Assembly: GCA_946699065.1 (NCBI GenBank)
Contig: CAMPDV010000302.1
Location: 62,001 to 126,000, forward strand
Length of the DNA: 64,000 nt
Direction of reading: 5' to 3'
DNA from: Loxodes magnus
Lineage: Eukaryota; Ciliophora; Karyorelictea; Loxodida; Loxodidae
Position numbers and translations under genes: made by a program
The notes under the pieces: model-generated
What the model was told of the DNA's origin: nothing
What the model saw: the letters and a program-made list of their open reading frames with translations, nothing else
The model's database searches: none
Shown here: piece after piece, positions 656 through 58,342 of the stretch
Position numbering within the stretch: the first letter of the stretch is position 1
How the letters are laid out: each line of letters opens with the position of its first letter

Positions 656-1761
<1,106 letters not shown>

Positions 1762-22531: not shown

Positions 22532-24619
22532 ATGGTTTCGAAAGTCGACAAGAGCTACATCATTTAGAGGCAATAGCTGTAAAAATCACATGAGATAGCT
22601 AAAGGTGGCTTTGGAGTGGTGCATAAGGGATTGCTGTAAGGAAGTATAGATGTAGCAATCAAAGAGTTGTATAATCAAAACATAACTCAGATGGCATAAA
22701 AAGATTTAGAAAATGAAATATAGATTACTCATACAATGAGACATTAAAATATAGTAACGGTATATGGATATTGTACATCTCCTCTTTGTTTGGTAATGGA
22801 ATTCTTGCCTCAAACTTTGTTACAAATATTGCATAGTGAATTAGAATTGCCCTGGGAAATTCGTTATTAAATCAGTTTGGATATAATTTTAGGGTTAGAA
22901 TATATTCATGGAAAAGAGATTTGACATAGAGATCTTAAGAGTAATAACATACTTATGGACCATAACTTAAAAGCTAAGATAACTGACTTTGGCTTTTCAA
23001 GAGTGAAAACTGAGTCAAAATCCATAGAATCAAAGAAACAAGTAGGTAATATACGCTGGATGGCTCCAGAGATAATGAGCTCAAAGCCATAATATAGTTA
23101 AAAATCAGATATTTTTTCAATTGGAGTAATTTTTTGGGAGATAGCAGCTAGAAAAATACCTTTTTAGGAGGGTACAGACCAGTTTATTGAGAGAGACATA
23201 CTTAATAAAATAAGAGAGGATATTCCAAATGACTGTCCATAAGCCTACAGCAAAATCATTTAAGAATGCTGAAAATAGGAACCGACTGAACGACCTTGTG
23301 CTTAAAATGTTCGAATTACTTTATAAGATTTAACGAGAAATACTGAATAGCAACAATCGACATGTATCTAAGAAAATAAAAATCTATAATCCTAATTATT
23401 GAAACCAAAAATAGAAGAGGAGTATAATGAAGTAGCAAAAACAGATGCTAAATAGTAATATGGCGACTATAGTTAAGGTAAGTTTTTATTTTTAGATAAA
23501 AGCCTTTATTAACATTTGGATTATGAATAAGCTCTTGAATAGCTACCATTGACATATATCAAAGAAAATGAAAATCTATAATCCAAGCCATTGAAACCAA
23601 AAATAGAAGAGGAGTATAAGGCAGTAGCAAAAACAGATTTTAGATAGTAATATGGCGACTATAGTTAAGGTAAGTTTTTATTTTTAGATAAAATCCTTTA
23701 TTAACATTTGAATCATGTCTAATCTGTTGAAATATCTAATGATAATAAGTGAATAGTATCAGGAAGCAACGATAAGACAATCACTATATGAAATCTGATG
23801 ACCGATTAGCTAGAGTATACTTTGAAGGGACACACAAACACTGTAAATACTGTAGCAATATCATGTGACTCAAAGTTAATAGTTTCAGGAAGTTGAGACA
23901 ATACAATTAAAATATGGGATTTAATCTCTGGTAAGTTAAAGAATACTTTGACTGGACATGGAAAATTCGTAAGTTCTGTAGCAATATCAAAGGATAACGA
24001 GTGAATAGTATCAGGAAGCTACGATAAAACAATCAAGATATGGAGTTTGATGACAGGTTAGCTAAAGTTTACTTTGGAGGGTCATATGAATTATTTAAGC
24101 TCTGTAATAATATCAAGTGACAACAAATGAATAGTTTCAGGTAGTTATGATGAGAATATTAAAATATGGAATTTAACGAATGGTCAGTTACAAAATACTT
24201 TGGCAAATAAAAATTTAGTCTATACTGTAGCAATATCAAGTGACGAGAAGTATATTGTATCAGGGAGTTAGGATATTAAAATATGGGACTTTCAGACCGG
24301 TTAGTGTATTAGAACACTGATTGAACATGAACAAGTTATAGGATGTATCAAAATAAGTAATGATAACTAATTTATGATAAGTGGTAGTTATGACGGAACA
24401 ATTAAAATATGAGATTTCAATACATTTTAATGCACTTAAACTCTTTAAGGCCATACAGAGAGTGTAAGAACAGTTGCAATCAGTAATGACAATAGATGAA
24501 TTGTATCAGGAGCAGAAGATAACTCTGTGAGAATATGAAATATTAAAAAAACACAAGTAGATCATAACTAGGTAAGTAATTTAATATATTAGAAGAACAA
24601 TAATTTAATGAAGGAATGA
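22532..24619 (+). CDS. TKL-family protein kinase fused to WD40 propeller, copy 1
   Basis: 676 aa if three in-frame introns are removed (23478-23495 and 23670-23687, 18 nt each with identical sequence; 24572-24592, 21 nt). Kinase, res. 25-270: glycine loop GGFGVV, VAIK with Lys44, HRDLKSNN (132-139), DFGFSR, RWMAPE (175-180), SIGVIFWEI, and ECWKQEPTERP, the CW...P..RP signature of TKL/Raf-like kinases. Linker, about 275-400: a 64-residue module present twice (KPKIEEEY...QQYGDYSQ). WD40, C-terminal half: seven repeats of the type [26 protein letters not shown] encodes Trp at conserved sites (ECW, GSW, DNKW, IW); TAA/TAG encode Gln. It ends on a TGA at 24617-24619, which could also be read as Trp. 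Residue 131, before HRD, is TGA here but Leu (TTA) in copy 2. A cytosolic Ser/Thr kinase with a protein-binding propeller; the substrate is unknown. Confidence 0.92.
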
Positions 24620-26539
24620 GGAAAGGAGCAAGTAAGAAAAGATATTTAAAACTAATTATTTTAAAAGAAATCAAAATAATAATTTCTATTTTCTATCATA
24701 TGTATATTACCTTATAAAGTATTAGGTAAGGCTCAAATCTACAATTAAATTAAAGCAATATAGTTATAGTAGTTTCTTCATTTATTAAAGCAATTTGTAA
24801 AATAAGTAAAGCATAAATTATTAAAATTATCTAATTTATTTCAAATAGTTAAGGTTTTATTAAGTGTTAAATTGTAATGAGTGAAATTTAAGTTTTACTA
24901 TAAAACTGCTATTAATTCATTTTAAAAATAGCTAAAAGAAATAAAAAAATAGTAAAATTAGAAAAATTAAAAATTAATTTTAAACTATAAAGAAAAAGAA
25001 AAAAGAGAGAAATAAATGAAGAGGTAAAAGCTAATATGCTTAGAGTTTTAAATCTACAACATAGATTTACAATATAAAAGTAATTATATTATAATAATTA
25101 ATACATTGAAATAAAAACATTTCAAAATTCCTTAATAACTAAGCATTTTATAATAGAGCAAAAAGAAGGTAGGTTAAGTAATCTAAATTTAGCAGTAAAG
25201 AAATTTAAGAAAATATAAAAATTAATTTGTAAAGATGTCAGATCGTTGTCGAAAAGAGTCTTCCTAACTCCTAAGAAGCAAGAACTTTTTATAAATTTTA
25301 CATTTAATAAATAATTATTTTTAGTTCGCGCTTTGTCTGCTAATTTTTATTTTTTATAGAGTTTTTTAAATTTCATATTCCAAGACAGTATTAAAGAAGA
25401 AATCTTAAAATTTATTTTAGTAAAAATCTAATTTTGAAAAAATAACTAAAACTTTATTAGAATTAAGGCAAGAGATCAATAAATTATAAAGGAACATTAA
25501 AAACTTTTGTAAAATCATATTAAACAAAAATAAAACTGAATAATAATAATTTAAGGTAGATATAAATGCTTTTTGAACTATGTAATAAAATCTAAATAAT
25601 ATAATTATTCACTTATTCTTAGAAAAAAAGAAGAAACAATAAAATCAATAGTAAACATATAGTAAGATCCATAAAACAAACTAGAATAAAAATTTTAAAT
25701 GTAATAGAATAAAAATAGATTATATTAAAAAAAAGAGAGAAAATATGCTATTTTTTTATTTCACAGAATATAATAACAAATTATAAAATCTCTATTTTAA
25801 AAATTGTATTGAAAAGGACTTAAAGAAACAATAAATTTACAATCTATCATAAATAAATGTAAGTAGGAATAAGAGAAGTTATATTGAAATAAACTTAGAT
25901 TGCTTAAAAAAAATTTGTCGTAATGTCAAAGAAGATATAAGCAACAAGAAAAATAATCGAGAATTGAGAGTAAAAATCAATTAAAGATTATTTTTTAAAT
26001 AATCTTCAACATAATTTTGGAATAAATAATAAAGTGCTTGAATTCTAGTTAACTTTTATTATTAAGATTGGATATAAAAGATAAAAATTATTACTTCTAA
26101 AACAGGTTTATTTGTAATTTTTCAAAAAAAATCTAATTTTAAATTTATTAGAAATAAAATTTTTAAGGTGAAAGAAAATAACGAAAACTGTAATAAGTAA
26201 AATAAATATTCAAAGAAATAAAATAAAAAATTCAAAATTTTATAAATTATTTTAGGAAATAGTTAAAAATGCAGAAATAAGCAGTAAAATATTTAAAAAA
26301 TTTAAATTTTTTATGCTTGAACTTTAGTTCGAAAATTTCTATAATAGAAAAAATTAATTAAAAATTTATAATAGGATTGAAAAGAGAAAATAATAAAAAG
26401 ATACTTATTAAAACTATAAAGAAAATTTAAAAGCTTGAAATAACATTATAAAAGGAGAAATATTAAAAATGGCTAATATATTTCTATGCTTTTTCTTTAA
26501 AGTCCATTTTAGATGAAAAAAGTAGAATTGATATATAAA
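24620..26539. other. AT-rich tail of the duplicated unit
   Basis: No supported gene. Present inverted at about 45640-47551 with near-identity, so it duplicated together with the kinase gene. Confidence 0.5.
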
Positions 26540-27430
26540 TATATAAATAATTGATTATAGTGGGTCTACCATTTTTAGGCTAACCACTTTTAAGTTTAAA
26601 GTTAGGTATAAGTATCAACTTCAAATCTGTTTGCATTTTTTCTGTCATAAGTCTTGGTAGTTTTTAGGTTGCTATTTCTAATCTTTTGATAGTAGAATCC
26701 CAACCACTTTTTATTGAATTCGTTAACCACCTATTAGATATAAGTAGCTTCACTCTTTAGTTGTAGCCTTTTTTCTATACAGTTTACCTTCTTAATTGCA
26801 ATAGATCCTGAAAATATTTTCCCATTCAATTTTTATTATTTTCTTTTATTTTTATTAAAATTGGAAGTAGCTTCTTCCTTTGTGCCCTGGTCGCTTGAAG
26901 TACCAGGATCTCATTATTTTCCGATATGGAATGAAAGTTTTTGAAGGCTGTTGCTCAACATCTATCGAATCATTCACTTATATTTTTTATAAGAATATGC
27001 TTTCAGTTAGCTCTGCGAATTGATTGAATTTTATTCTAATTTTTCTATTCTGATATTTCCTGACTGTTTATTTTCAATTTTTTCTCTTGTGAGTTAGTCA
27101 TCAGATATTCTATTTTTCTTTCTAGTTCTTATACTGTTCTTAGGAGTTTAAAATCTTCTGATTGCATAACTTGAAGTTCTTAAAGTGCTTTTTATTAATC
27201 GTATTTTGACTAAGATGAATCCTTTTAAGAATAGACTTATTGCAAGAAATGTTCGATTTTTTCTATAATCGATATATTTATTTGCTTAAAATTGTAAAAA
27301 TAATTATCTTTATTTATAGGTATTAAACTAACTAAGGAATAAAGAAATTAGAATCAAACATAATAAGTGAATTAAAATGATTTTGTCTGTCACAATAGTT
27401 AAAAATTCATTCTTAAAAGGATAAAATTAA
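26540..27430 (-). mobile_element. LINE ORF1 fragment inside the left unit
   Basis: Minus-strand remnant encoding a charged coiled coil (EDFKLLRTVQELERKI type) followed, in another frame, by a zinc-knuckle region. The knuckle here reads RSWYFKRPGHKGRSY: the histidine remains, but both outer cysteines are replaced by Ser and Tyr and the second by Phe. The copies at 44860-45620 and 52852-53424 keep the outer cysteines. So it is a decayed non-LTR retrotransposon ORF1, carried along with the duplicated unit. Confidence 0.65.
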
Positions 27431-27435
27431 TTTTT

Positions 27436-29802
27436 AATTTTGATTATGGTCTTACTAATAAAAAATTAAATAAACAAGCACTTATAAGCTATCTTATCTT
27501 GAAACTCTCATTTTTTAATTCCTAGAATTTATTCAATTCACTATAAAGGTTATAATATAAATAATTGAGTTATTAAAATATTAATTTTTTGGGTTTATTA
27601 AATAAGTATCCTTAAAAAGCACTAATTTATAAAATAATTTAAAATCTTTATTTTTATGCCAAAATGATTAAGCTCAAATTTTTCAGACATTTAATGCTTC
27701 TTTATAACTAATCACTCATATTCATTCTTAAGATTTTACAGCCAAGTAAAATAAATTTTATCTTAAAGGATAAAATCAACCTGAAAGATTTCAATTAAAA
27801 AAAGTCGCCTCAAAACCATTATAATATAATTAAATGAAATTAAAGAAAGGAATTTAGAATATTTCAAATTTTAAGAAATTGCAATATAATTATTTTTATA
27901 GTCTCCTAATTGTTGAAAACTAACTCAAATCATTTAACATTAAATCTCAAATCAGACAATAAAAAAACAGAAGATAAAATTCGGAATTATTCATATTTAT
28001 TATATTAAAAAAATCATAAATTTATAATAAACATCTAAATTGAAGAAATATTCTTAAAATAAGTTTTCTTTTCATAAATTTCATTGTAGTTTTCTTTTCA
28101 TAAGTTTCATTGTAATTTTCTTTTCATAAGTTTCATTGTAGTTTTCTTTTCATAAGTTTCATTGTAATTTTCTTTTCATAAGTTTCATTGTAGTTTTCTT
28201 TTCATAAGTTTCATTGTAGTTTTCTTTTCATAAGTTTCATTGTAGTTTTCTTTTCATAAGTTTCATTGTAGTTTTCTTTTCATAAGTTTCATTGTAGTTT
28301 TCTTTTCATAAGTTTCATTGTAGTTTTCTTTTCATAAGTTTCATTGTAGTTTTCTTTTCATAAGTTTCATTGTAGTTTTCTTTTCATAAGTTTCATTGTA
28401 GTTTTCTTTTCATAAGTTTCATTGTAGTTTTCTTTTCATAAGTTTCATTGTAATTTTTTTTTGTCTAAAATAAAAATCAGAAAAAAATATACTAAACTTA
28501 TGAATAAGTTTTAAATACATTAAATTTTTATTAAAAAAAAAGCCATATATTTATATAATCTGTCAAAAGTTAGAAAATATAAAAAAATAAGAAAATAAAC
28601 AAACTAAATTAAATAAATTTCTTTCTAAAGTATTTATTCTCACTAACTTAAAAGCATGAATAGGAAGAGAAGATAAAGAAAAATAATTAAATATGATTTA
28701 ATAAAAATAAAAAAAATTTAAAAAATTTAAAAATGTAAATTTATAAAATTAAGAGAGAAAAATCTAAGTAATACATTTTTATTTAATTTAAATCAAAATA
28801 ATTTATAAAAAGGTTTAAATTATAAATCTCTAAAAAGATACTTGAAAAAAAAAATAACAAAAATATTTGATAATTGATTGTAAAAAGCATAATAGATCAT
28901 AAAATTATTTAAATGATATAAAAAAAATAAATAAAAATCTTAGCTTCTCTCTAAAATTATTTAAAAAAAAGCAAAAATCAAAAAATGACCATCAAAAAAA
29001 TAAGAAAAATTAAAATAAATAAAAAATTAAAAAAATTAATAAAAAAAATAAAAAAAATAAGATAAGAAAAAATAAGAAAAAATAATGTTAATTTATGAGA
29101 TGTGAAAAAAATTATAAGAATTATATAAAAATAAAAACTAGTTAAAATTATTTTCAAAGATAAAGAAAAAAATTAAAAGTAACATCATAAATATAAATAA
29201 AAAATATTATAAATATAATTTTCAATAAAAATTAAAATTTAATAAAAGTTAGTAAAAAATTTAAGGAAATAAAAAAATTAAATTTAACAAAATTTTAAAT
29301 AAAACCTAATAAAATATTTATATAAGAAATAAATAGTTTTAAATCTCAAACATTCTATTAAAATAATTGATTTATTTCAGAGAAAAATAAATATAAGAGA
29401 ATCCTAAAATTTCACAAAAATAATTAAATTTATTAAAAATTTTATTTTATTAAAAGAATGAAAGAATATATAGTTAGAATATCTAATTTTTTACTTTAAA
29501 TTTTTAATTATAAAATACTTTTTTTAATAAAAAATATTATCCCAATCTTCAAGATTTTTAAACAAAATATTTTAAAATCTATTTCCTTTAAATAAAGTTT
29601 TAAATTAAAAATTGATATAAATTAAAATTTAATTGTTATTTAGATATTTAAACATACTAGTTATTTAATTTTTATTCTGCCAATATTTTAAATAAATAAA
29701 ATTCTTTATCTAGAAGATAATAACAATGAAAATATTAAATAAGTATCATTTACTTAAACTAAAAATACAAAAATATTTTTTAAATTAGGAATAAAAAAAT
29801 AA
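27436..29802 (+). repeat. Partial second unit (leader only)
   Basis: Repeats 18728 to about 21590 with high identity: start sequence, minisatellite and most of the AT-rich leader. It then stops abruptly at the edge of the inverted-repeat block at 29803. No kinase gene follows, and the missing part of the unit does not resume after 39095. Confidence 0.88.
28062..28461. repeat. 26-bp minisatellite, about 15 copies
   Basis: Same array as at 19346, but its units are almost uniformly the TGTAGTTTTC/CATAAGTTT variant, whereas the left array is almost uniformly TGTAATTTTC/CATAAATTT. Each array has been homogenised separately. Confidence 0.93.
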
Positions 29803-29972
29803 GTAAAAAGTACTTATCTTAGCTATTTTTAATTTACTTAAATTATTAATATGAAAATAGAAAGGATTTACTTTTACTTCATTAAGTAAAATTATTTAAG
29901 GCGAAATAAAATTCAAAATGCAAGTGATATTTCTCACTTTTTCCGTTATTAAGAATTATTAATCTCATTTAA
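29803..29972 (+). repeat. Left arm of 170-bp inverted repeat
   Basis: Starts TAAAAAGTACTTATCTTAGC and runs to ATCTCATTTAAA. Its reverse complement lies at 38926-39095 with only a few differences. It marks the left edge of a 9.3-kb block that interrupts the partial second unit. Confidence 0.85.
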
Positions 29973-31369
29973 AATAACTTGCAGATTTCAAATAAATATA
30001 AATATCATAAATAAGTCTTCGAAAAGGAGTTCATTATTCTCTATCGAAAAGCATAAGGCATCTTAAGCTTTAATTTTCAATCTTTTACGATAGTTAATTC
30101 CTTATATTAGAATAGTATATACATTTAAAAATGTGTAAATTTATCATACTCTCCGATCATACAGTTTTGATTATTATTAGGAAAATGACAATCATTAAGA
30201 TTTTTCCAAAAACTATAGGATCGAGTTCTAAGCTAATATATACTGATAATTACTTTTCTAAATTATTTATTCAATTTAGTTTTAAGTATTAACTGGAAAT
30301 TGGTAAAGTTTAATAACTACACAGTATAAATTTTAGCTGTTTTTATTCTCGTAAACTTTGAGTAGCTATATTATAGAAATAATGTATTATTTTTTTATAG
30401 CTCATTTTTTACAAGGAAATATACTCCATCAGCTCTTGTACTTTAACTACAATTTTTATAATAGTTTCATATATATGAATCTATATTTAAATAATGTTTT
30501 AATGTTATCATATTTCTTTATTAGAAAATAAATCAATGTTATGTTATAGAGTAAACTGTTAATATTATATTATATTAAATTCATATTGCAGTGAGCAATA
30601 TTAAAATATCTTTATTTGATCCTCCTTTTAGTCCTGTGTCATAATTATATACAATTTTTTACCATTTAAATTTAAATATGAAGTAAATTTGAAGCTTATC
30701 TTATTGTATCTTTTATAGCATATTACAATAAATAAAGTCGATGAATTATGATTTTTACAATAATTATATATCTATTTTAATTGGTACGGAGTTTCTATCA
30801 CATGTTGTACGATTTAATCTACAAGATAAAGCAATAAATCTATTTTCTAAGTTGTTAGGAGATTCTGTTTCTATCATTATTTTGATATTAAGTATTGAAT
30901 AAATTAATCGCTTTTTAAATTATGCTTCTTTAATAAATCTTCAATTTCAATATTTTTCAGATACAAATTATGCTATGCTGGATTCAAAATGCTTAATAAA
31001 GTTATACTTATTTTCAATTTCTCTTATTATTTATGCTAGCAAAATCTAATTAGTAAAAAGAGGCTGAGCTTAGTCCTTCTCGATTATAAAATCTGATGTA
31101 TCTCTATTGTAAGTTATTATTAATCATATAAATCACTTAATTAAATAGTCTAAATAGCTTACTTTATTTTGAAAATTTGGAAGTTTATTTAGATATCTTT
31201 TTTTAAAGTTAAGATGCTCTTGCATTTGCATCAAGTTTGTATTTAATTTCACGCTCTTAATTTTGTGTCAATTAAGAATATCTAATTTAGGATATTATTT
31301 TGATGAATAAGACTATTGTTAAAGTTCACTGAAAGGAAGTTACATAAAAGAATAGAAAATGGGTTGTCT
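29973..31369. other. AT-rich interval inside the inverted-repeat block
   Basis: No transposase-like or other frame was recognised. Sequence is single-copy within the window as far as I can see. Confidence 0.4.
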
Positions 31370-32160
31370 AAATATAAAAGTATTACTAAATAAAATTATA
31401 AATTAATTTTTAGGGCATTTTTATTTCCAAAAGCAGAATATGGATCGAGTAATTCCGTGAGCAATTCTTCATGGAGTTTTAAAAAAATGATATACATAAA
31501 AGCCATAGAAAAGCAGAAGATAAGCATTATAAAATACAAACTCTTCGTTCAATGAATCATCCTTTATAGATCTAAATTGGGTACCTTATGAATTGTATAT
31601 AGCATTTAAATATTTTAAATTCTAAATTAAGCTCAAAACAGAGGCTTCAGTAAATCCTGAATCAGACATAGCATTCGTTTATAATAGAACAAAGTGTGGC
31701 AACATTAAATATTTTAATAACTTTGAAAAGCTACCATAACATTTTAAAATAGACTTTTAGAATGTTAGGGCAGAAAAGAGTTTTTAAATACTATAAAAAA
31801 TAAAATTTCTAAAAAAATTTACCTAGAGACAGTTGGCAGAATGAGTATAATGCCAACTGCAATCCTTTACTTAGGAGATAAAGATTCTAGAGCATAATAT
31901 TTCCATTTTATACGAATACTACTTTAAATAAAAAAATGATTAGAGATATAATTTCAATTTATAAATTTTGAAACATTTTCTTACAAGTTCCAATACTCCT
32001 CAAAATAAGGGAAATAAGAAAAATAGAAAAACAAAAAATATTTCAAGATGTCTGATGATCAAGTGTAAAAAAATATATTTCTTTATGAAATATAGTAAAA
32101 ACATATTTAAATTAATTTATTTATTAAGAATATATAATATCAGATCATTATAGTTTCTTG
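31370..32160 (+). mobile_element. LINE ORF2 C-terminal fragment
   Basis: Decayed non-LTR retrotransposon 3' part. The frame through SFNESSFIDLNWVPYELYIA and EASVNPESDIAF matches the homologous stretch of the copy at 61970-63660 (SVFNESCYVYFNWLPFEHIM, ARTYPESDIG). Upstream PKAEYGS matches LMLNTVEN/AEYGG of that copy after a frame change. It lies in the thumb-to-C-terminal region downstream of the reverse transcriptase core. No RT catalytic motifs are present, so it is 5'-truncated and inactive. Confidence 0.7.
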
Positions 32161-32979
32161 AATTCTAAATTCGGTTTATTTTAGATTTTATAACTCTTAA
32201 AAGAATAGATCAAGTTATTAGTTAGTAACTTCAGTTATAGTTCCACAATCATTCTTATAGCATCATGCTTCAGTTTAAATTAACTGGGTAAAACTTTTTT
32301 AATATCAGATTAATTTCTGAGTTTAATTATTTCTCTTTTGATAATTTTCATTTTGATAGCATATTTTTCTTTAATTTCATTCTAACAAGATTAATCTAAT
32401 TCTTTTCAAAATTATAAGTTAAATTTTAAACATCATGCTAAAATTTCTAGCATTTATTAAAATCTATGTAACTTTCACTCTCTTTTTCGTTTTTTTGATG
32501 GAAATATATTCTATTTAATTTTTATTTTCTTTTTAAATAGTTAAATTCTTTGTAAATGTAAAATTCTTATTAATATCGTCTTAAACTTGAGTCGTATTAG
32601 TTTGATTCTGATAATATTTGAATCAAGGTTTAGTTTATATTTTGAATAACTTCCCCTTTAGTACTTAATTAATTCTCAGTAATTATTTTTCTTTTTTCTC
32701 TTATTTTTAACTGTTATTAACGTAGCTAAAGAAAAGGATAAAATCTTAATAATAATGCATAAATAGTGTTCAAATAAGCAAAAACTTTAATTAATCCGAA
32801 ATACGTAATTAGGTGAATTTGAATTATGAGTAACAATAGCAATTTATTTAAAACTGAGAAAATTAAGTTTTTGACAAACATTCAAATTTAAATTAAGAAT
32901 AGATTTAAAATTCAAATATAAGCATTAATACAATATATAAAAATAAACCTTTTATTATAAATTTTAATCCTTGTCACTT

Positions 32980-34960
32980 ATAAGAAACACCTCTTTTTAA
33001 AGAATCTGAAATTAAAAAAATAATAAATCAATTAGTTAATAAAAAAGCATCAGGTCAGGTATTGATGGTTTAAAAGCAGAATTAATTAAACATGGAGCAT
33101 AGGAATTACATAATATGGTTAAAAGTTTTAGTAACAATATGCTAAGAACACTCACTATACCAAATGAGTTGAAAAGATTTACTATTTTATCTATTTTCAA
33201 AAAAGGAAGTAAAAGTGTCTGAAGTAATTGAAGAGAAATAGCTCTATTGAATTGCTTACTTAAAATATATGATAAAGCATTAACTTAAATACTATATAAT
33301 TTAATGTATTCAAGAAATATCATTCAATAAGCTTAATTCGACTTTTTTCGGAAAAGATCTACATAATAACAAATTTGAACAATTTAATGAATTATTGATT
33401 TGCATCATAAATGGTCATAAAAAATAGTTAATTGATACTCTAATAGATGATGAAAAATGCTTGACATTATGCCAAGGAAATTGCCATTTGACCATCTAAG
33501 AAGACTTAGATTATTTCTGGGATTGATAATGACACTTGAATCTTTTTATGAAAATATTGATGCTAAGTTTAATAAATTTAAATATTAATGGAATTCCTAT
33601 TGTTTAAAATGATGAAACTACATATCTTGGATACAAATTGGGAAATAATTATAATTATAAATTACAAAGTGCAAGCAAAGTTTCTAACTTTAAATTAACA
33701 GTTTTAAAAGCATCAGCGATTCTTTCTAAGTACGGAGTAGTATCACCATTCAATTTTAAAAAACTTTGCAGAACATTTATTTTGACTAAAATAAAATATG
33801 AAAGTTATATAACTCCTTGAAGTATCACGTCAAAAAAAGGAATGAAAAATAAATAACTAAATTACAAAAACTCATTTCAAGGAAAGCATTTAAATCTCCT
33901 TAATTTGCATTTTATGAATCTTACTTCAATGATCTTAATTGACTTTCGTCTGAACACATGACAATATTAAAATTAATGCGTTTTTATTTTAAACTAGAAT
34001 AAATCAGTAGAGAAAGCTTGAACTCTGATGTAGCATTCTTGTTTTCTAAATGCAAGCAATACAATTTAGCAAATATGAAATAAATAAGAACCTTGAATAA
34101 TATAAAATTGATATTGAAAGTATGACAAACCTAAAAGATTTTAATTAGCATATTATTATAAGAGTGAAAGAAAATTTCTTTAAGAATGTTTTTAAAGGAA
34201 TACACAGATGCCTACAGCTTAAAGATTCATTTAATCTGTTTAAAATAATAAAAGTGTATTTCCTGAAATAACTTACACTAAGTTTAATAGACATCGAATA
34301 TAAGACATAAGTCCCATTTTCCAATTGATGACATTCACCTATAATTTCTAATACGAACTTTGTTTGCGTCACATAAGCATATAAAATAGAACTGATTGTG
34401 CATGTGATTAAGCTCATGATGAACTTGATCATATATTTGAAAGTATTTTCTATAAAGATATTTTTTAGGAATTATCTAATTAAAAAATACTTTATGACAA
34501 AGATTATAAATAGCTAATTATGCACGACTAAAATTATATTAATTCAAACTTTGTAAAAGTAAAATTCCTAAGATTGACAAATATATTAAAAATTTTCATC
34601 AAAAATTGCTTAAAAAAGGATATAAATTAAAAAATTTAATAATTGAAACGAAAAGATAAATTGATGGGAGAAAAAAATATAATTTAAGAAAGAAACTTAA
34701 ATAATGGTTGTGCAAAAATCAAAAAGAAGAAAATTGAAAATAAGAAGAGAAATGAAAATTCTAGAACATAATTTAGAACTAATATAGAAGAAACAAAAGA
34801 ACAGAAGCAGGAAGAATTAACTAGGGGTTGATTATAAACTTACATAAACTCTTATACTTAACATATTTCACATGAAATATAACTATAAGTAATGCAATTA
34901 CGTCCCAATACTCAAAGTATTGAAACTTTTTTATCTTATTATTATTATTATTATTATTAA
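32980..34960 (+). mobile_element. LINE ORF2 reverse transcriptase, internally deleted, with (TTA)n tail
   Basis: Non-LTR retrotransposon remnant. RT finger region: NKKASG, then in the next frame GIDGLKAELIKHGA, LKRFTILSIFKKGSK and REIALLNCLLKIYDKAL. Next comes PFDHLRRLRLFLGLIMTLES (the stretch after motif A), then a jump to thumb sequence ETTYLGYKLGN, so the segment that should carry motif B and the ADD of motif C is missing. Downstream: NWLSSEHMTILKLMRFYF and a C-terminal zinc-like CACDQAH...DHIFES (about 34370-34440). A (TTA)n microsatellite at 34937-34960 marks the likely 3' end. At least one single-base frame change and one internal deletion are visible. Confidence 0.8.
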
Positions 34961-37031: not shown

Positions 37032-37434
37032 GGAAACCAACTGCTTATGGAACCAACTGATACAAAGTTAAGTAGTGACAAAAGAACAACTCTGACTGCA
37101 ATCTTAATCTAGATAAAACAAAGTTGACATAATGGATATTGAATAAGATTAATAAACATAGAATAAATAGAATTAATAACAATCAAAATAATAATAGAAC
37201 CTAATAACTAGAATATAAAAGATAGAAAATCACTTATACCCCGAATTTAAGCCTAAAATCATTAAATATAGAACATGCTGATTCTGCAGCTCAAAGAACC
37301 ATTTACTGAAAACCTGCCAAAGCTTTAACCAACTAAAGAGAAAGGAAGACTTTCAACTGATCAAGGAGATTATCATAGTGGTTGCCTTCCACATAAAAAA
37401 CTTGCTCATGGCTTCCACCACGTTAAAAAACTGA
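37032..37434 (+). mobile_element. LINE ORF1 fragment with intact zinc knuckle
   Basis: One frame runs to a TGA at 37432-37434. Gln/Asn-rich and charged sequence leads to FKPKIIKYRT and the knuckle CWFCSSKNHLLKTC (37276-37317), an exact CX2CX4HX4C. FKPK just before the knuckle and the CXS..HLxK spacing are shared with the ORF1 at 60889-61770. Non-LTR retrotransposon nucleic-acid-binding ORF1; no ORF2 follows. Confidence 0.6.
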
Positions 37435-38925: not shown

Positions 38926-39095
38926 TTTAAATGAGATTAATAATTCTTAATAACGAAAAAGTGAGAAATATCACTTGCATTTTGAATTTTATTTCGCCTT
39001 AAATAATTTTTCTTAATAAAGTAAAAGTAAATCCTTTCTATTTTCATATTAATAATTTAAGTAAGTTAAAAATAGCTAAGATAAGTACTTTTTGC
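38926..39095 (-). repeat. Right arm of 170-bp inverted repeat
   Basis: Reverse complement of 29803-29972, ending ...GCTAAGATAAGTACTTTTTG. Outside both arms the flanks share only ATAAG/CTTAT, so a target-site duplication cannot be called with confidence. Confidence 0.85.
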
Positions 39096-39412
39096 TTATA
39101 TGAAACTCATTAAAATTTTGTTGCTTTATGAGTTCTATATTGTCTTAAAATATTTGCATGGTAGTAAGCATTTCCTCCAAAACTTAAAATCGAGAAAAAA
39201 TTATTGAGTTCAATATGCTTCTTACGATATTTAAGAATCCTTCTAACTTTAAAATAAAATATAAAGTAATAAAAAATTTAAAATAAATAGAAGATTTTCT
39301 TAAAGCATTTTAGTTAGTCAAAAGTTAGTTTTTGATGTTTTAATGGCTAATGTTCATACTAAATTATAAATATAATTTACTCTAATTCAATATATAAAAT
39401 ATGTTAATAATA

Positions 39413-40227
39413 TTCTAATAATAATAATAATATATACTTAATTATTTAAAGTTTTTGCTCTCACTGGGCTTTCAACCAGTTACCTACAGCCATTTTACGT
39501 GGATGAATACAACGACCTTTTTTTATACGTGGTAGGTTACCAATAATAGCTATTTTCAGTTCTCGCTAAAATTTTCTATTTATAAATTCCATCATTCGTT
39601 ATTCAGAGTTAATTAAGGTTTCTTCTTATTCTTCATTCTTCGCTTATTTGGAGTTTCTCTCAAGTTCAGCATTGTCGTAGAATGTGATTATTCGCCTTAT
39701 AGTATCATCAGTTTTTGGTCTATTTTTCTTAAATCTTCTTCTAAAAAACTTTATTTTTCCAGTTTCTCTATTCTCATTTATAAGTTTATATAAATTTTTT
39801 CTTCTTGTTTCAATTATTAGTCAGTTAATTTAATTTATTTCTATAATCATGTTCTATTATTAACTAACTATGGATTGCGATTGTTCATAAAGTTATAATT
39901 CTGTTACTAAGTTATTTTAGATTAACTGACGTAGTATTAATAATTCATTATTTTGGTCGTCAATACCGTTCATTAATTCCCTTCCCCTTGATTGTAAATT
40001 ATTTCTTCGTATTTTTGGATTAGTTTTTTCATTTGATCTAACTGATTTTAGAGTTTTTTATCAGCTTCACTCTTAGATTCCTGAATATCGATTGGTCCGA
40101 CCATAACTTTTCCTTCAGAAGAAGAATTTTAATCCTCTTTTTTGCGTTTAATTTTCTGCATTTCTTTTTCTGCTTTTCTTCTTAAGTTTGTTAGTTAATT
40201 CTTTGAGAGACGAACAGATTATTCCAT
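39413..40227 (-). mobile_element. Coiled-coil ORF with (TTA)n tail, LINE ORF1-like
   Basis: Minus-strand frame starting MEQSVRLSKNQL at 40227. After a frame change (about residues 75-95) it continues through a long coiled coil (ELLILRQLIQNNLVTELQLY), a basic stretch (KIKFFRRRFKKNRPK), more coil, and a C-terminus ending IHPRKMAVGNWLKAQ. No zinc knuckle was found. A (TAA/TTA)n microsatellite at 39413-39433 lies directly 3', as in the LINE copies at 34960 and 59665. Most likely an ORF1-only non-LTR derivative; a host coiled-coil gene is the alternative. Confidence 0.5.
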
Positions 40228-41039
40228 ATTTTTAAAGGAAGTTTTTAAGAGATGATTAATAATATTGTATTGTATCTTCTAAAAATGTAGTTTTAAAATG
40301 AAATATAGCAAAGAGCTATTATTTTAATCAAATCTTTATAATCTCTAAAAAGCTTAAAATTAATTAAGATATTTCAAATGATGAAAATAAAATGAAATAG
40401 CTCTTTTTCTAAATGATAAATCATAGAAAATAGAAACTTTTAAGTAAGAAATGAAATAACTGAATAAATAATTGCAATATTGGCTTAATTAATCTTTATA
40501 TTTAACGCTCTAAATAATAAAGTTTTATTTAGATAAATTTTTTTAGTAGCTTATTGCTCTAATATTTCTCTTTCATTTGATGGAGTTATATTTAGTTTTT
40601 AAGACTAGGAATCTATTAATTTGAATATTTAAAAATTAAATAATTGATATATAAATTATATTTATGCTTTAACTAATTAATATGCTATTTTAATAAATAT
40701 TTTAGCTATATAGACTAAATAGATCTATTTTCAATAATTAAAATACGTTATTTTTGAAATGCTAATTAATGATTATTTCTTAAATAGTAAATTCTATTTT
40801 ATTATATAAGATTTTACCAATAGTAAGACTCATAAATATATTCAATAACTATTATTAGCTTAATAAGCATTTATTCAAACTTATCTCATAACTTTTTGAT
40901 ATTTCAATATTAAATATAGTTATTACTAAAATTATATTCAATATATTATATAAAATACCACCTAAGAAACAATAAACCTCTTCAACAAGTCCTAATCATT
41001 AACCAGGTTTTTCTAACTACATCTACTTCCTACAATTTA
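40228..41039. other. AT-rich interval
   Basis: No supported feature. Confidence 0.4.
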
Positions 41040-41650
41040 ACATTTACAAACTAATAAAAGAACTTTAAGACCTTAAATAGATAACCTAATCTCTAATGCT
41101 AATAATTAACTATTTGCTAAATTACTAAAATTCTTAGAAACAATAAAAATAGCTGAAATCTTCTTAACAGCTAGAAAAATATTTATCAAATCGAATGGAA
41201 TTCAAAAGTTTGACATGAGGATTAATTAACTTGAGCAATCCAACTTAATTAAAGATCGGATTTAGAATCAAGAGGAGTGTAGGATCTGTCCTTCTCCTAT
41301 TAGAAAATAGAAAAAAGATGTTTATACTGTAAAAGATATGGACATAAGGTAAGCCAATTCTATAGTTTCAAAGGAAAATAATATTATGAAGCAAAAAGAG
41401 GAATCCAAAATCTATTTAAGATCTATTGAACACCAAACAGAAGATTATATTAAAAAAGATTTTAACCTTACTAGAAGCTCATAAGATTACGCATACACTG
41501 AGACAATTTGAAAGATGATAAGTAAGATTTGAATTCCAAGATGTAGAAAGAGGTCAAAATAGGCAATTTATAAGAATTTAAGATCTGGAAAAACCAGATG
41601 AATATGACATCGAAGATTTCTAATAAGAAAAAACTTTTACAAACTCTATT
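41040..41650 (+). mobile_element. LINE ORF1 remnant with partial zinc knuckle
   Basis: Helical charged stretch (KELQDLKQITQSLM, QKQLKSSQQLEKYL) followed in another frame by KRCLYCKRYGHKVSQFYSF. This is CX2CX4HX4 with Phe in place of the last Cys (about 41319-41363). GHKV and the surrounding spacing match the knuckle of the fragments inside the duplicated units. Decayed non-LTR ORF1. Confidence 0.5.
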
Positions 41651-44054
41651 TTGTGATTAACCAAACAAAGGTAAAATAACTTTAATAACTTGTGTTATGT
41701 AATATAAAATGTATACATTGTTTACTAAATACTAATTAGTCATATTACTATTTAAAATATGTCTATAAATTAAGATTATTTTGAAATTAATTAAAAGTAA
41801 GCAGCATAATATTAAAAATTAACTGATTATTGTGTATATTAGTTAAACTTATCTAGTAAACTTAAATGTTAAATGTAGTTACTTTTATTAAATAATAAGT
41901 TAATACAAACTTTAAAAATGGTAATAATATTAGAAAATAAGTTAAAAATAATAAAAATATTTAAATTACTAAAATAAACTATTTTAGATAATTATTTGCT
42001 ATCTTTAGGGTAAATTAAAATAGCTTATTAAATTTTCAAACGTATTATTAAATCTAAACTATAGTAAAACATTCTTATAGTGAATATTATAATAGTTTTA
42101 GGAAAAAATAGAAAATAAAAGAGATTTAAGCAAAACAAAATGTTACAAATGAGCATTTTTAGTTTGATATATTCTAATTAGAATAATGGTATCTTTCGCT
42201 TATTTAAATAGTTTTTCTTTGTTATAAAATAATGAAATAAAGCAATAATATATAAGTTTGCTCCATATAGTATAAAGCAATTTGCTATTATAAGTTTATA
42301 TTCCTTTAGTATTGAATATAAATAATAGAATAAAAGTTAAACTGGATATACTGTATATTTAACATTTTGTAAAATTAAAACTAATTTTACATAATTTAAT
42401 ATCAAACTTAATTTATTAGTATCTTTCAATTTAGTTATTAATTTAGATTTATATATAAATTAGGATTAAGTCACTAGAATAAACTCATTAAAAATGTATA
42501 ATAAGACTAATAATTTAAATATATATAAATAAGCAGCATCAAATGCATAATTTTAAATAATTTACTGATTGCTCTATTTCAAAGCATGCTTTACAACTTT
42601 TATCAAGATTTAGTAGTTATTAAGAGATATTATTACCAATTAGATCATTTTAGTTCAAACATTATAAATTTATTAAATAAATATTTTCGATAATTAAAAA
42701 CTATACAAACTTAGAGAATGCGGCAAACTTTGTAAATTGAAGTCAATTAAATAAAATTTAGAATAAGTAAATTTGAATGTGAAAGTAGACTTAAATGAGA
42801 TTACTCTCCTAAAATATTTAAAAATCCATTAGTTAATAATATAATTAATGCGAGTATATGAACAATTTTAAGAATGGTAGATATAAGCAACTATTTTTAT
42901 TATTAATGAATAGTTTTATATATATTCGAATAGATTTACTTCCTAACACATTTAGATTCTTAATTATTTTCCTTTTTATAAAGAAAATAAGAAACCTTTT
43001 ATTTATTATCAATAATAGACTCCAATTTCCTTAATAACTGAAAAAATTGCAAAAATTATTGATTAGTAATTATCTACTCTTTATGATGCTTATTTAAGGA
43101 CTTTCGAGAAAAATAAAATATTTAAAGCTTTTAAAAGATATTTAAGTAATCAATTGTAATATTATTTCTGTAAAGCTACTATTAAAATTAAAAAACTACC
43201 TATTATACTAATAAGTTTGGTAAGCTTCATAGTAAACTGCAGATACTAATACAAACTTGAATAAATAATTCAGAAAATATATTTCCAGTATATTCAACTT
43301 ATAATGTGTTCCTATAATTCCCGCAAGAATATTAAAATAATTATTGTCTTATTGATATTTCCCTCATTGATTAAAGAAATAAGAAATATTTGAAAAATAC
43401 TAAAATATAATAAGTATTCTAAAAAAATAATTATACAAATATTTAAAATTACAACATAAGGCAATTTATTTTGTATGATCAAGGTTATATAAACTAACTT
43501 CCAAATATTTCTTTGTGATGCTTAATTTTTAAATCAAAATATTTCATAGGATATTAATATAAAGAGGATTTAATAACTGAAAAACGAGTTAGTTGATAAA
43601 AGAATAAGAAGAAAAAATAAAGATTGAAACTATAGTAATTAGTTAAAAATGCATACTAAGAAAAACTTTGAATTCTATAATTAAAAGAAATAATTCTAGC
43701 AATTCAAGGTATAGAAATACTCTTTTAGTCTAAAATTTAATTTAAAAGTACGTAACTTATAGTAAATATATGCATCACATAAAATAATTAACATATAAAT
43801 AGATAAGAAATTATTTAACATTAAAATAAATAAAAAATAAACTAAGAGTAAAGCGAAATTAATTCAAATAAGAAATTATATATTAATCTTTTAATTATTT
43901 TTCTTAAATAATAGAATGTACCAAATAAAATATCAAATATTTTATTTACAATTTTTTAATTATATAATTAAAAAAAATTCAGTTGAAAAGAGAAATTTAA
44001 AAGATTTTATGAAGCTAAATAAATAATAATAATGAATTATAATCATATAATCTT
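41651..44054. other. AT-rich interval
   Basis: Low-complexity DNA, nothing supported. Confidence 0.4.
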
Positions 44055-44730
44055 TCATTTAGGTTCATCACTGTTTTAAAGCTTGTAAATGTTAACATAA
44101 AATGTCCTGTTAGAATTCTTCATAATCTTTCTGTCCTTTGCATCAAGATTACACTTTAACTATAATTCTTTTCTACTAACCATATTATAGGTATTTGACT
44201 AAAATCCAATTAATTGTCAAGATTTTATTATAGTTTGAGTCTTCGAGTTTCTTCGCACTTCTTCTAATCTTTTTTGTATATTATTTTAAGTCAGTAAATG
44301 TTACTCTCTGGGATAATATACAGCTTACTTAGTTTATTTTATTGTATTTATAATTTCTTATATTTAGTCTTTTACTTATTTCAAAATTTCAAAAAATTCT
44401 TTCATATTATCCACACGTTTTACAGAAATTGTATTTTATTCTTCTTTTTTCTCCTCTTCCTTTGATGTTGCACTGCTAGTTCCAATAAAATATTTTAAAT
44501 TTTTTGCTTAATAAATATAAAATTAAATAAGTTTTTATATTTTCTAATAATAAAATCATTTTTGATATTCAAACTAAACTTTGATCATTAATTTAAAAAA
44601 TTCTATAGCTTTTCAAATTTAAACTCTTAGTTATTAATATTTTTTAATTATCTTCAAACGAAAAATAAATTTTTACCTTAGTCTATTTGAAAAATTAAAT
44701 TTTAGATGCTGGATAAATATAAATTAAAAG
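44055..44730 (-). CDS. Hypothetical coiled-coil protein, cut at the unit border
   Basis: Not recognised. A frame through SATSKEEEKKEEQNTISVKR, NMKEFFEILKQVKDQIQEII and NIQKRLEEVRRNSKTQTIIK ends at a TGA at 44055-44057 after LQNSDEPK. Upstream, another frame (SLNLKSYRIFQINDQSLVW) looks coding, so an intron or frame change near 44500-44560 is likely. The 5' side stops at the border of the duplicated unit at 44731, so the gene may be truncated there. A short (ATT)4 run just downstream (44028-44040) hints that it could be another ORF1-type element rather than a host gene. Confidence 0.42.
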
Positions 44731-44859
44731 TTAATTTTATCCTTTTAAGAATGAATTTTTAACTATTGTGACAAACAAAATCATTTTAATTCACTTATTA
44801 TGTTTGATTCTACTTTCTTTATTCCTTAGTTAGTTTAATACCTATAAATAAAGATAATT

Positions 44860-45620
44860 ATTTTTACAACTTTAAGCAAATAAATATATCGATTATAGAA
44901 AAAATTGAAATTTTCTTGCAATAAGTCTCTTATTAAAAGGATTCATCTTAGTCAAAATACGATTAATAAAAAGCACTTTAAGAACTTCAAGTTATGCAAT
45001 TTGAAGATTTTAAACTCCTAAGAACAGTATAAGAACTAGAAAGAAAAATATAATATCTTATGACTAACTCACAAGAGAAAAAAATTGAAAATAAACAGTC
45101 AGGAAATATCAGAATAGAAAAATTAGAATAAAATTCAATCAATTCGCAGAGCTAACTGAAAGCGTATTCTTATAAAAAATATAAGTGAATGATTCGATAG
45201 ATGTTGAGCAACAGCCTTCAAAAACTTTCATTCCATATTGGAAAATAATGAGATGCTGGTACTTAAAGCGACCAGAGCACAAAGTAAGAAGCTGCTTCCA
45301 ATTTTAATAAAAATAAAAGAAAATAATAAAAATTTAATGGGAAAATATTTTCAGGATCTATTGCAATTAAGAAGGTAAACTGTATAGAAAAAAGGCTACA
45401 ACTAAAGAGTGAAGCTACTTATATCTAATAGGTGGTTAACGAATTCAATAAAAAGTGGTTGGGATTCTACTATCGGAAAAGATTAGAAATAGCAACCTAA
45501 AAACTACCAAGACTTATGACAGAAAAAATGCAAACAGTTTTGAAGTTGATTCTTATACCTAACTTTAAACTTAAAAGTGGTTAGTCTAAAAATGGCAGAC
45601 CCACTATAATCAATTATTTA
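44860..45620 (+). mobile_element. LINE ORF1 fragment inside the right unit
   Basis: Counterpart of 26540-27430. Coiled coil in one frame (EDFKLLRTVQELERKIQYLM), then a change of frame into PSKTFIPYWKI and the knuckle CWYLKRPEHKVRSC (45254-45295). That is CX2LX4HX4C, with Leu at the second Cys site. Non-LTR ORF1 remnant, convergent with the kinase-WD40 gene of the unit. Confidence 0.65.
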
Positions 45621-47551
45621 TATATTTATATATCAATTCTACTTTTTAAATCTAAAATGAACTTTAAAGAAAAAGCATAGAAATATATTAGTCATTTTAA
45701 ATATTTCTCCTTTTTATTATGTTATTTCAAGCTTTTAAATTTTCTTTATAGTTTTAATAAGTATCTTTTTATTTTCTCTTTTCAATCCTATTATAATTTT
45801 TTAATTAATTTTTTCTATTATAGAAATTTTCGAACTAAAGTTCAAGCATAAAAAATTTAAATTTTTAAATATTTTACTGTCTATTTCTGCATTTTTAACT
45901 ATTTTCTAAAATAATTTATAAAATTTTGAATTTTTTATTTTATTTCTTTGAATATTTATTTTACTTATTACAGTTTTCGTTATTTTCTTTCACCTTAAAA
46001 ATTTTATTTCTAATAAATTTAAAATTAGATTTTTTTTGAAAAATTACAAATAAACCTGTTTTAGAAGTAATAATTTTTATCTTTTATATCCAATCTTAAT
46101 AATAAAAGTTAACTAGAATTCAAGCACTTTATTATTTATTCCAAAATTATGTTGAAGATTATTTAAAAAATAATCTTTAATTGATTTTTACTCTCAATTC
46201 TCGATTATTTTTCTTGTTGCTTATATCTTCTTTGACATTACGACAAATTTTTTTTAAGCAATCTAAATTTATTTCAATATAACTTCTCTTATTTCTACTT
46301 ACATTTATTTATGATAGATTGTAAATTTATTGTTTCTTTAAGTCCTTTTCAATACAATTTTTAAAATAGAGATTTTATAATTTGTTATTATATTCTGTGA
46401 AATAAAAAAATAGCATATTTTCTCTCTTTTTTTTAATATAATCTATTTTTATTCTATTATATTTAAAATTTTATTCTAGTTTGTTTTATGGATCTTACTA
46501 TATGTTTACTATATGTTTACTATTGATTTTATTGTTTCTTCTTTTTTTCTAAGAATAAGTGAATAATTATATTATTTAGATTTTATTACATAGTTCAAAA
46601 AGCATTTATATCTACCTTAAATTATTATTATTCAGTTTTATTTTTGTTTAATATGATTTTACAAAAGTTTTTAATGTTCCTTTATAATTTATTGATCTCT
46701 TGCCTTAATTCTAATTAAGTTTTAGTTATTTTTTCAAAATTTGATTTTTACTAAAATAAATTTTAAGATTTCTTCTTTAATACTGTCTTGGAATATGAAA
46801 TTTAAAAAACTCTATAAAAAATAAAAATTAGCAGACAAAGCGCGAACTAAAAATAATTATTTATTCAATGTAAAATTTATAAAAAGTTCTTGCTTCTTAG
46901 GAGTTAGGAAGACTCTTTTCGACAACGATCTGACATCTTTACAAATTAATTTTTATATTTTCTTAAATTTCTTTACTGCTAAATTTAGATTACTTAACCT
47001 ACCTTCTTTTTGCTCTATTATAAAATGCTTAGTTATTAAGGAATTTTGAAATGTTTTTATTTCAATGTATTAATTATTATAATATAATTACTTTTATATT
47101 GTAAATCTATGTTGTAGATTTAAAACTCTAAGCATATTAGCTTTTACCTCTTCATTTATTTCTCTCTTTTTTCTTTTTCTTTATAGTTTAAAATTAATTT
47201 TTAATTTTTCTAATTTTACTATTTTTTTATTTCTTTTAGCTATTTTTAAAATGAATTAATAGCAGTTTTATAGTAAAACTTAAATTTCACTCATTACAAT
47301 TTAACACTTAATAAAACCTTAACTATTTGAAATAAATTAGATAATTTTAATAATTTATGCTTTACTTATTTTACAAATTGCTTTAATAAATGAAGAAACT
47401 ACTATAACTATATTGCTTTAATTTAATTGTAGATTTGAGCCTTACCTAATACTTTATAAGGTAATATACATATGATAGAAAATAGAAATTATTATTTTGA
47501 TTTCTTTTAAAATAATTAGTTTTAAATATCTTTTCTTACTTGCTCCTTTCC

Positions 47552-49639
47552 TCATTCCTTCATTAAATTATTGTTCTTCTAATATATTAAATTACTTACC
47601 TAGTTATGATCTACTTGTGTTTTTTTAATATTTCATATTCTCACAGAGTTATCTTCTGCTCCTGATACAATTCATCTATTGTCATTACTGATTGCAACTG
47701 TTCTTACACTCTCTGTATGGCCTTAAAGAGTTTAAGTGCATTAAAATGTATTGAAATCTCATATTTTAATTGTTCCGTCATAACTACCACTTATCATAAA
47801 TTAGTTATCATTACTTATTTTGATACATCCTATAACTTGTTCATGTTCAATCAGTGTTCTAATACACTAACCGGTCTGAAAGTCCCATATTTTAATATCC
47901 TAACTCCCTGATACAATATACTTCTCGTCACTTGATATTGCTACAGTATAGACTAAATTTTTATTTGCCAAAGTATTTTGTAACTGACCATTCATTAAAT
48001 TCCATATTTTAATATTCTCATCATAACTACCTGATACTATTCATTTGTTGTCACTTGATATTATTACAGAGCTTAAATAATTCATATGACCCTCCAAAGT
48101 AAACTTTAGCTAACCTGTCATCAAACTCCATATCTTGATTGTTTTATCGTAGCTTCCTGATACTATTCACTCGTTATCCTTTGATATTGCTACAGAACTT
48201 ACGAATTTTCCATGTCCAGTCAAAGTATTCTTTAAATTACCAGAGATTAAATCCCATATTTTAATTGTATTGTCTCAACTTCCTGAAACTATTAACTTTG
48301 AGTCACATGATATTGCTACGGTATTTACAGTGTTTGTGTGTCCCTTCAAAGTATACTCTAGCTAATCGGTCATCAGATTTCATATAATGACTGTTTGATC
48401 GTTGCTTCCTGATACTATTCACTTATTATCATTAGATATTTCAACAGATTAGACATGATTCAAATGTTAATAAAGGATTTTATCTAAAAATAAAAACTTA
48501 CCTTAACTATAGTCGCCATATTACTATCTAAAATCTGTTTTTGCTACTGCCTTATACTCCTCTTCTATTTTTGGTTTCAATGGCTTGGATTATAGATTTT
48601 CATTTTCTTTGATATATGTCAATGGTAGCTATTCAAGAGCTTATTCATAATCCAAATGTTAATAAAGGCTTTTATCTAAAAATAAAAACTTACCTTAACT
48701 ATAGTCGCCATATTACTATTTAGCATCTGTTTTTGCTACTTCATTATATTCCTCTTCTATTTTTGGTTTCAATAATTAGGATTATAGATTTTTATTTTCT
48801 TAGATACATGTCGATTGTTGCTATTCAGTATTTCTCGTTAAATCTTATAAAGTAATTCGAACATTTTAAGCACAAGGTCGTTCAGTCGGTTCCTATTTTC
48901 AGCATTCTTAAATGATTTTGCTGTAGGCTTATGGACAGTCATTTGGAATATCCTCTCTTATTTTATTAAGTATGTCTCTCTCAATAAACTGGTCTGTACC
49001 CTCCTAAAAAGGTATTTTTCTAGCCGCTATCTCCCAAAAAATTACTCCAATTGAAAAAATATCTGATTTTTAACTATATTATGGCTTTGAGCTCATTATC
49101 TCTGGAGCCATCCAGCGTATATTACCTACTTGTTTCTTTGATTCTATGGATTTTGACTCAGTTTTCACTCTTGAAAAGCCAAAGTCAGTTATCTTAGCTT
49201 TTAAGTTATGGTCCATAAGTATGTTATTACTCTTAAGATCTCTATGTAAAATCTTTTTTCCATGAATATATTCTAACCCTAAAATTATATCCAAACTGAT
49301 TTAATAACGAGTTTCCCAGGGCAATTCTAATTCACTATGCAATATTTGTAACAAAGTTTGAGGCAAGAATTCCATTACCAAACAAAGAGGAGATGTACAA
49401 TATCCATATACCGTTACTATATTTTAATGTCTCATTGTATGAGTAATCTATATTTCATTTTCTAAATCTTTTTATGCCATCTGAGTTATGTTTTGATTAT
49501 ACAACTCTTTGATTGCTACATCTATACTTCCTTACAGCAATCCCTTATGCACCACTCCAAAGCCACCTTTAGCTATCTCATGTTTTATTTACAGCTATTG
49601 CCTCTAAATGATGTAGCTCTTGTCGACTTTCGAAACCAT
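47552..49639 (-). CDS. TKL-family protein kinase fused to WD40 propeller, copy 2
   Basis: Second copy of the gene at 22532-24619, with an identical 2088-bp span from ATG 49639 to TGA 47552-47554 and no net indel. Kinase motifs are all present: [36 protein letters not shown]...P..RP. Residue 131 is Leu (TTA), the expected hydrophobic residue before HRD; copy 1 has TGA at this codon. The linker duplication, both 18-nt candidate introns and the seven WD40 repeats are conserved. Point differences include NDQTVI versus NDKTIT in the first WD40 repeat. Equal length and few changes suggest recent duplication or ongoing gene conversion with the coding frame kept. Confidence 0.92.
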
Positions 49640-58045: not shown

Positions 58046-58236
58046 CGCTAATTTAATTAATTAATTTATTTATTTAACTAATTAACTTTTAAAGAATAAT
58101 AAACCATTTCAAAATTGTTAACTTAATTCATGATTTAAAAGAAATTAGATACCTTTAAGATAAACTGTCAATTTCTTATGTTTCCCTGATCACTTTTAAG
58201 AAGGTAATAAATTTAAAATTGATAAATAAATAAATT

Positions 58237-58310: not shown

Positions 58311-58342
58311 ATTTTAGAATACTCGTAATCTTTAATACTTGC

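Follow-up and report, generated by a model that had tools for sequence, protein, structure and literature searches.

A duplicated TKL kinase-WD40 gene carried in inverted repeat units of the ciliate Loxodes magnus

Several described proteins combine a protein kinase with WD40 repeats. In LRRK2, the kinase is followed by a WD40 domain (PMC10135577), and several cyanobacterial kinases carry seven WD40 repeats (cbSTKII, WD40(7); PMC2176072). The association is far rarer in eukaryotes than in prokaryotes (PMC5587647): 14 kinases with WD40 repeats are reported in Dictyostelium, from families other than TKL (PMC1420674), and a single WD40 kinase, of the OTHER group, in Phytophthora (PMC3019232). For TKL kinases in ciliates, counts of 13, 5 and 15 are given, apparently for Ichthyophthirius, Tetrahymena and Paramecium (PMC3341644). 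A literature search, which misses most subscription papers, found no TKL-WD40 fusion described in a ciliate and nothing specific in print on kinases of the karyorelict lineage of ciliates. Here, we analyse an AT-rich 64-kb stretch of Loxodes magnus DNA (contig CAMPDV010000302.1; the window hereafter), which contains two near-identical, inverted copies of a gene predicted to encode a TKL-type kinase, a linker and a seven-bladed WD40 propeller (Table 1). The description that suits the locus best is that of a TKL kinase-WD40 gene present in duplicate within the repeat units of a karyorelict ciliate.

Table 1. Coordinates of the genes, domains and repeat units, numbered from the first letter of the window.
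Feature	Coordinates	Strand	Basis or remark
TKL kinase-linker-WD40 gene, copy 1	22532..24619	+	table-27 reading frame; 695 amino acids straight through; stop TGA 24617-24619
Kinase domain, copy 1	22574..23320	+	about residues 15-263; Pfam PF07714/PF00069; PDB matches Roco4, CTR1, B-Raf
Linker, copy 1	23344..23727	+	two tandem 192-bp (64-amino-acid) repeats, each with a candidate 18-nt intron
Seven-bladed WD40 propeller, copy 1	23702..24547	+	residues ~391-672; Pfam, motif spacing; fold predicted for copy 2
TKL kinase-linker-WD40 gene, copy 2	47552..49639	-	table-27 reading frame; Leu, not Trp, preceding HRD
Linker, copy 2	48440..48823	-	same duplicated linker
Complete ~8.7-kb repeat unit with copy 1	18721..27428	+	
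Second unit, start only	27429..29808	+	head-to-tail after the first; without the kinase-WD40 gene
Complete ~8.1-kb inverted unit with copy 2	44721..52858	-	
565-bp tail of preceding unit	52859..53423	-	head-to-tail with the inverted unit
Decayed WD40 relic	54756..56177	+	blade groups 54756-55079 and 55953-56177, blade-free gap between; blastp

The genes were read with translation table 27, in which TAA and TAG encode glutamine and TGA encodes tryptophan but also serves as the stop. This reading, in keeping with the initial annotation, which had pointed to a ciliate with an altered code, yields full-length proteins and bears out the two open reading frames (ORFs) proposed there. Both copies are exactly 2088 bp long, terminal TGA included, both keep their catalytic motifs, Pfam recovers the kinase and the WD40 repeats in copy 1, and motif spacing gives the seven blades in both. 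TGA codons fall on conserved tryptophans (those of the TKL "ECW" and the WD40 "IW", which we take to be conserved motifs) as well as on positions under weaker constraint. The last 26 codons ahead of the terminal TGA contain, in frame, neither TAA nor TGA and only two TAG, and the same codon pattern upstream of stop TGAs has been described for Loxodes magnus (PMC11441545). Two other codes were tried and rejected: the standard code, which gives one ORF of at least 120 amino acids (aa) in the 64 kb, and table 6 (TGA stop), with which the gene is broken and none of the listed ORFs of 150 aa or more runs across it.

In copy 1, Pfam places the kinase at about residues 17-261, where PF07714 scores 186.7 bits and PF00069 180.1 bits, a narrow margin. 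Both copies carry KGGFG at residue 24, VAIK at 41, HRDLKSNN at 132, DFG at 152, APE at 178, ECW at 245 and ERP at 253. We took membership of the TKL group to mean that PF07714 outscores PF00069 and that the K, HRDLK, DFG and APE motifs are present; PF07714 leads here and the motifs are found at 41-44, 132-136, 152 and 178. Among the best 60 of 2703 PDB matches of copy 1, the top single-domain protein is Dictyostelium Roco4 (135.9 bits), with B-Raf also high, while among the best 60 of 162 matches of copy 2 at E ≤ 1e-30, plant CTR1 (140.7 bits) is followed by Roco4 (137.1 bits) and then B-Raf. EGFR heads the list for both copies; that chain holds two kinase domains in tandem, each scoring 70 bits. 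Thus, by its profile scores and its matches to Roco4, CTR1 and B-Raf, the kinase looks to be of the TKL group. The copies differ directly ahead of HRD, where residue 131 is TGA (Trp) in copy 1 and TTA (Leu) in copy 2, and at residue 18, which is Lys in copy 1 and Ile in copy 2. Judging by an alignment with CTR1 and by what we take to be the kinase consensus, Ile18 and Leu131 suit the usual hydrophobic core positions, and copy 1, with Lys18 and Trp131 there, may be losing constraint. AlphaFold, given the sequence of copy 2 alone, predicted the kinase part poorly. No transmembrane segment was found in the protein (the top 19-residue hydropathy, 1.47, lies within the kinase) and the kinase begins near the N-terminus; the protein is therefore probably cytosolic, which does not fit the term "receptor" of the initial annotation in its cell-surface sense.

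PF00400 matches the C-terminal part of copy 1 with 241.4 bits, six stretches passing individually, and motif spacing gives seven blades in either copy, most of them 42 codons long. AlphaFold, run on the same single sequence, predicts 27 strands over residues 391-670 with block-mean pLDDT (predicted local distance difference test) values of 70-92; a 28th strand is presumably supplied by residues preceding blade 1, which would give each of the seven WD-motif blades its four strands. In copy 1, identity between blades averages 51% over the 21 pairs (range 33-64%) and is 52-64% among blades 1-4. The lowest pairwise identity in the best set of six blades, 0.42, ranks as "moderately repetitive" in the classification of PMC5587647, although our value was obtained with a simple gapped alignment, in which blade 7 was shortened to 33 residues, and that paper uses the WDSP pipeline. 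About 2% of fungal and protist WD40 proteins lie above 0.4, and highly repetitive ones have six repeats at or above 0.7 in every pair (PMC5587647), a level that the best six blades, with their minimum of 0.42, do not reach. The blades are thus really more alike than is usual in eukaryotes, mainly blades 1-4, but to call them "strikingly alike", as had been done, overstates it. Synonymous divergence (dS) between blades, calculated for 15 pairs with blade 5 omitted because of its deletion, runs from 0.57 to saturation; it exceeds 1 or is saturated in 11 of the 15, three of these being saturated. Alignment of the repeats within and between the two copies, which had been suggested as a check on the exchange of repeats, shows strict blade-by-blade orthology: each copy-1 blade is 0.93-1.00 identical to the blade of the same number in copy 2 and at most 0.67 to any other. 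Neither blade dS nor blade-by-blade matching gives a sign of recent blade exchange, within or between the two copies. Of the evolution by duplication and repeat exchange that had been put forward, the inverted duplication is supported and the exchange is not.

It is the linker, not the blades, that is the youngest internal duplication within the gene, its two repeats being identical at 170 of 192 bases (88-89%). Each repeat contains the sequence GTAAGTTTTTATTTTTAG, which starts at 23478 and 23670 in copy 1 and, in copy 2, lies on the minus strand at 48484 and 48676, and which occurs at these four sites only in the window. This sequence is probably an 18-nt intron, the removal of which would give a protein of 683 aa instead of 695 aa, and the linker duplication seems to have copied this candidate along. 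Against it stands the reported depletion, in Loxodes, of introns whose length is a multiple of three (PMC11441545). Positive selection on the linker repeats was not detected: dN is 0.142 and dS 0.055, and with the candidate introns removed the 20 versus 2 changes are not significant (p = 0.26).

Between the two copies, 16 of 2088 bases differ, with no indels, affecting 14 codons, 10 of them with an amino-acid change. Five changed residues lie in the kinase, five in the WD40 part and none in the linker, a distribution that gives no support to the proposed diversification of the propeller. By the Nei-Gojobori method, nonsynonymous and synonymous differences number 6 and 1 in the kinase, 0 and 1 in the linker, and 5 and 3 in the WD40 part, where, with two copies only to compare, blade number is equal. 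Over the whole gene, dN is 0.0066, dS 0.0118 and dN/dS about 0.56 (Fisher test against neutrality, p = 0.34). The substitutions include two clusters, of three changes in 4 bp (codons 18-19) and of four in 11 bp (codons 415-418), which would be improbable under random scatter; both together arose in 0.000225 of 200,000 simulations, in which the cluster limits were those fixed after the clusters had been seen. The clusters could be explained by conversion from an unseen copy that had diverged.

Each gene copy lies in a repeat unit. Arm 1 starts, on its outer side, at the unit phase at which arm 2 ends on its inner side, to within ~11 bp of AT-rich sequence, and this coincidence suggests a real unit boundary. 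The arms are 98.3% identical over 6.7 kb, but unevenly so. Two stretches of ~1.3 and ~1.1 kb, both extending slightly into the gene, are free of substitutions (21246-22583, with one 9-base indel, and 24178-25304), versus the 16 in the gene, while 35 substitutions, about 3%, are found in 26256-27431. Over the initial 2 kb of the unit, identity is 84-99% per 200-column alignment window, minisatellite portions without aligned columns being omitted. Indels amount to 12 events in 4590 aligned flank bp versus none in the 2088 bp of the gene. Such mosaic identity fits gene conversion over an older duplication, one that would have involved the whole segment rather than an exchange of blades. Six-frame Pfam scans gave no match in 18699-22531 and 24620-29821, thus no recognised transposon domain, and none in the spacer, 29800-44679 (~20 bases around 39678-39699 uncovered). 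A 26-bp minisatellite in the unit starts differs widely in copy number, with 34.3 copies at 19348-20242, 15.4 at 28062-28462 and 10.5 at 51964-52235.

Other features of the window bear on its genetic code. The table-27 code, TGA as stop and a short intron match traits of karyorelicts, the introns of which measure ~17-25 nt (PMC11441545); the only intron supported by reading frame is that of a MAPK/CMGC-like kinase gene at 701-1691 (+). This gene lies in two frames separated by a 19-nt GT-AG intron (1147-1165), the removal of which restores DFG, and its HRD motif is translated as HRN. A tRNA with a UUA anticodon, expected to decode TAA as glutamine, lies at 16775-16846 (-) and is the only Rfam match at the gathering threshold. 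Together, the code, the 19-nt intron and this tRNA fit the description of Loxodes magnus (PMC11441545), and the base composition and repeats of the window are also consistent with a karyorelict ciliate such as Loxodes. An intact copine gene, 546 aa, at 12528-14168 (-) has two C2 stretches and a copine vWA (Pfam Copine, 225.5 bits) and ends in TGA without any internal TGA.

Beyond the second arm lies the decayed WD40 relic, in which two stretches match Pfam WD40 with 47.0 bits. The initial annotation had counted it as a third relative. It is a WD40 relative, as its two groups of blades attest, but an origin from the same fusion is not supported by any kinase match: no kinase was found beside it, either by blastp of copy 1 against the six frames of the window, in which the MAPK-like gene is the only other kinase match, or by Pfam over 53400-58801 in five of six frames. 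Two coding-like stretches facing each other at 59774-60604 (-) and 60900-61670 (+) carry a CCHC-like zinc knuckle. An exact CX2CX4HX4C, which we take to be the zinc-knuckle pattern, is present in the latter, whereas the His is absent from the former; these are perhaps relics of a retroelement gag. Six-frame Pfam scans of the right end (59021-64000), these stretches included, gave no match. The left flank (1-18698) was scanned with Pfam at predicted or listed pieces only.

How, then, does this gene compare with known kinase-WD40 fusions? Bacterial proteins of the PkwA type have the same layout, with an N-terminal kinase and C-terminal WD40 repeats. Residues 399-671 match the propeller of PkwA (5yzv) with 180.6 bits, and a kinase-WD40 protein of a Chlorohelix plasmid is 35% identical across 71% of the query. 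They differ in that the kinase here looks to be of TKL type (PF07714, TKL structures), and the PknB model NF033483 scores 129.5 bits, below its cut-off of 450. A tblastn search of plasmids matched 599 records, all below 60% identity, none of which covers at least 80% of the query in one place. Scans of IMG/VR and of GTDB genomes returned two and seven pattern matches, respectively, none of them confirmed, each being a single-protein scan that detects close relatives only. Closer to home, the fusions of Dictyostelium and of oomycetes also join WD40 repeats to a kinase in protists, those described there being non-TKL. The pairing of domains had been considered uncommon, and it is indeed rare in these two protist kinomes (PMC1420674, PMC3019232), but kinase-WD40 fusions as such were already known. 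The kinase-WD40 fusion is an established kind of protein, of which a TKL-WD40 without Roc-COR is a modest variant.

We favour, with a probability of roughly two in three, a soluble protein made of a TKL kinase, a duplicated linker and a WD40 propeller that docks or regulates the kinase, the two copies having arisen by duplication of the unit and by conversion. Following a proposal made for LRRK2 and its WD40 domain, the propeller would bind a partner and thereby place the kinase at its substrate or hold it off; it may thus dock or restrain the kinase in the manner of the C-terminal half of LRRK2. The two copies would stem from a segmental duplication that took in the entire ~8-kb unit, and gene conversion of a central tract of ~5 kb would have followed. 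Several points weigh against this view. Kinase function and the role of the propeller are predicted, from sequence and analogy alone, and the dN/dS (p = 0.34 versus neutral) leaves the function of either copy unproven. Moreover, the gene is denser in substitutions (16/2088) than the chosen nearby flanks (5/2413; p = 0.007, the bounds having been picked after viewing the data), which is unexpected under simple purifying selection. An unlikely but serious contender is a gene-bearing repeat, i.e. a ~8-kb unit that amplifies, dispersed or in tandem, with the kinase gene as a passenger and most copies decaying. This would agree with the truncated head-to-tail neighbours at both arms and the coincidence of unit ends at one phase, with a dN/dS indistinguishable from neutral and Trp131 ahead of HRD in copy 1, and with the repeat-rich genomes of Loxodes (PMC11441545). 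It sits badly with two full-length frames free of indels next to flanks with 12 indel events, and with the empty six-frame Pfam scans on either side of copy 1. It is distinctly unlikely, in our view, that the gene belongs to a large family on such an amplifying unit, in a ciliate whose genome is not edited, with conversion from diverged copies elsewhere bringing clustered amino-acid changes into the coding sequence while the adjoining flanks stay identical, so that diversification of the family centres on the gene.

The initial annotation had raised another inference, namely a recognition or signalling receptor family diversifying by duplication and WD40 exchange, like the fungal HNWD and NLR proteins. 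The duplication is real, and regular WD40 repeats in a duplicated gene are a trait shared with the HNWD/HET class; the likeness of blades 1-4, the "moderately repetitive" minimum of the best six blades (PMC5587647), the excess of substitutions over the chosen flanks and the two codon clusters, which hint at conversion from unseen paralogues, would also suit it. Repeats of the fungal class, however, exceed 85% identity across stretches of at least 100 aa (PMC4986451, which gives about 85% for Podospora), whereas the blades here are 33-64% identical with dS from 0.57 upwards, are matched strictly by number between the copies, show no sign of exchange and are joined to a kinase in the stead of NACHT. 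Amino-acid changes show no excess in the propeller, and the protein has no transmembrane segment. Of the 48 Pfam families matched by copy 1, the best 25 include neither NACHT nor NB-ARC, and the ~128 residues between kinase and WD40 repeats are presumably short for either. The tests that can be made on the sequence thus lend no support to the receptor proposal and do not make a self/non-self system likely, and we consider the proposal very unlikely. As to a reduced LRRK/Roco protein that lost LRR, Roc and COR and kept kinase and WD40, the TKL-type kinase does precede the propeller here, in the order of LRRK2 (PMC10135577), and Roco4 is the top single-domain match of copy 1 and comes next after CTR1 in copy 2. 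But only a few bits separate Roco4 from CTR1 and B-Raf, the 60 matches listed include no LRRK2 chain, and DFG stands here where LRRK2 has DYG (PMC10135577). Pfam finds no Roc-COR GTPase or LRR in the protein or in six frames of the 3.8 kb upstream (18699-22531), and the kinase, which Roc-COR would precede in that family, begins at about residue 15. Because Roc-COR is absent, we did not file the gene as LRRK/Roco, and such an ancestry appears extremely improbable.

If transcripts confirm the gene, this ciliate lineage would gain a TKL kinase-propeller fusion that lacks a GTPase module and is akin to the C-terminal half of LRRK2. The locus also shows gene copies spreading within repeat units of a ciliate genome that retains its repeats.

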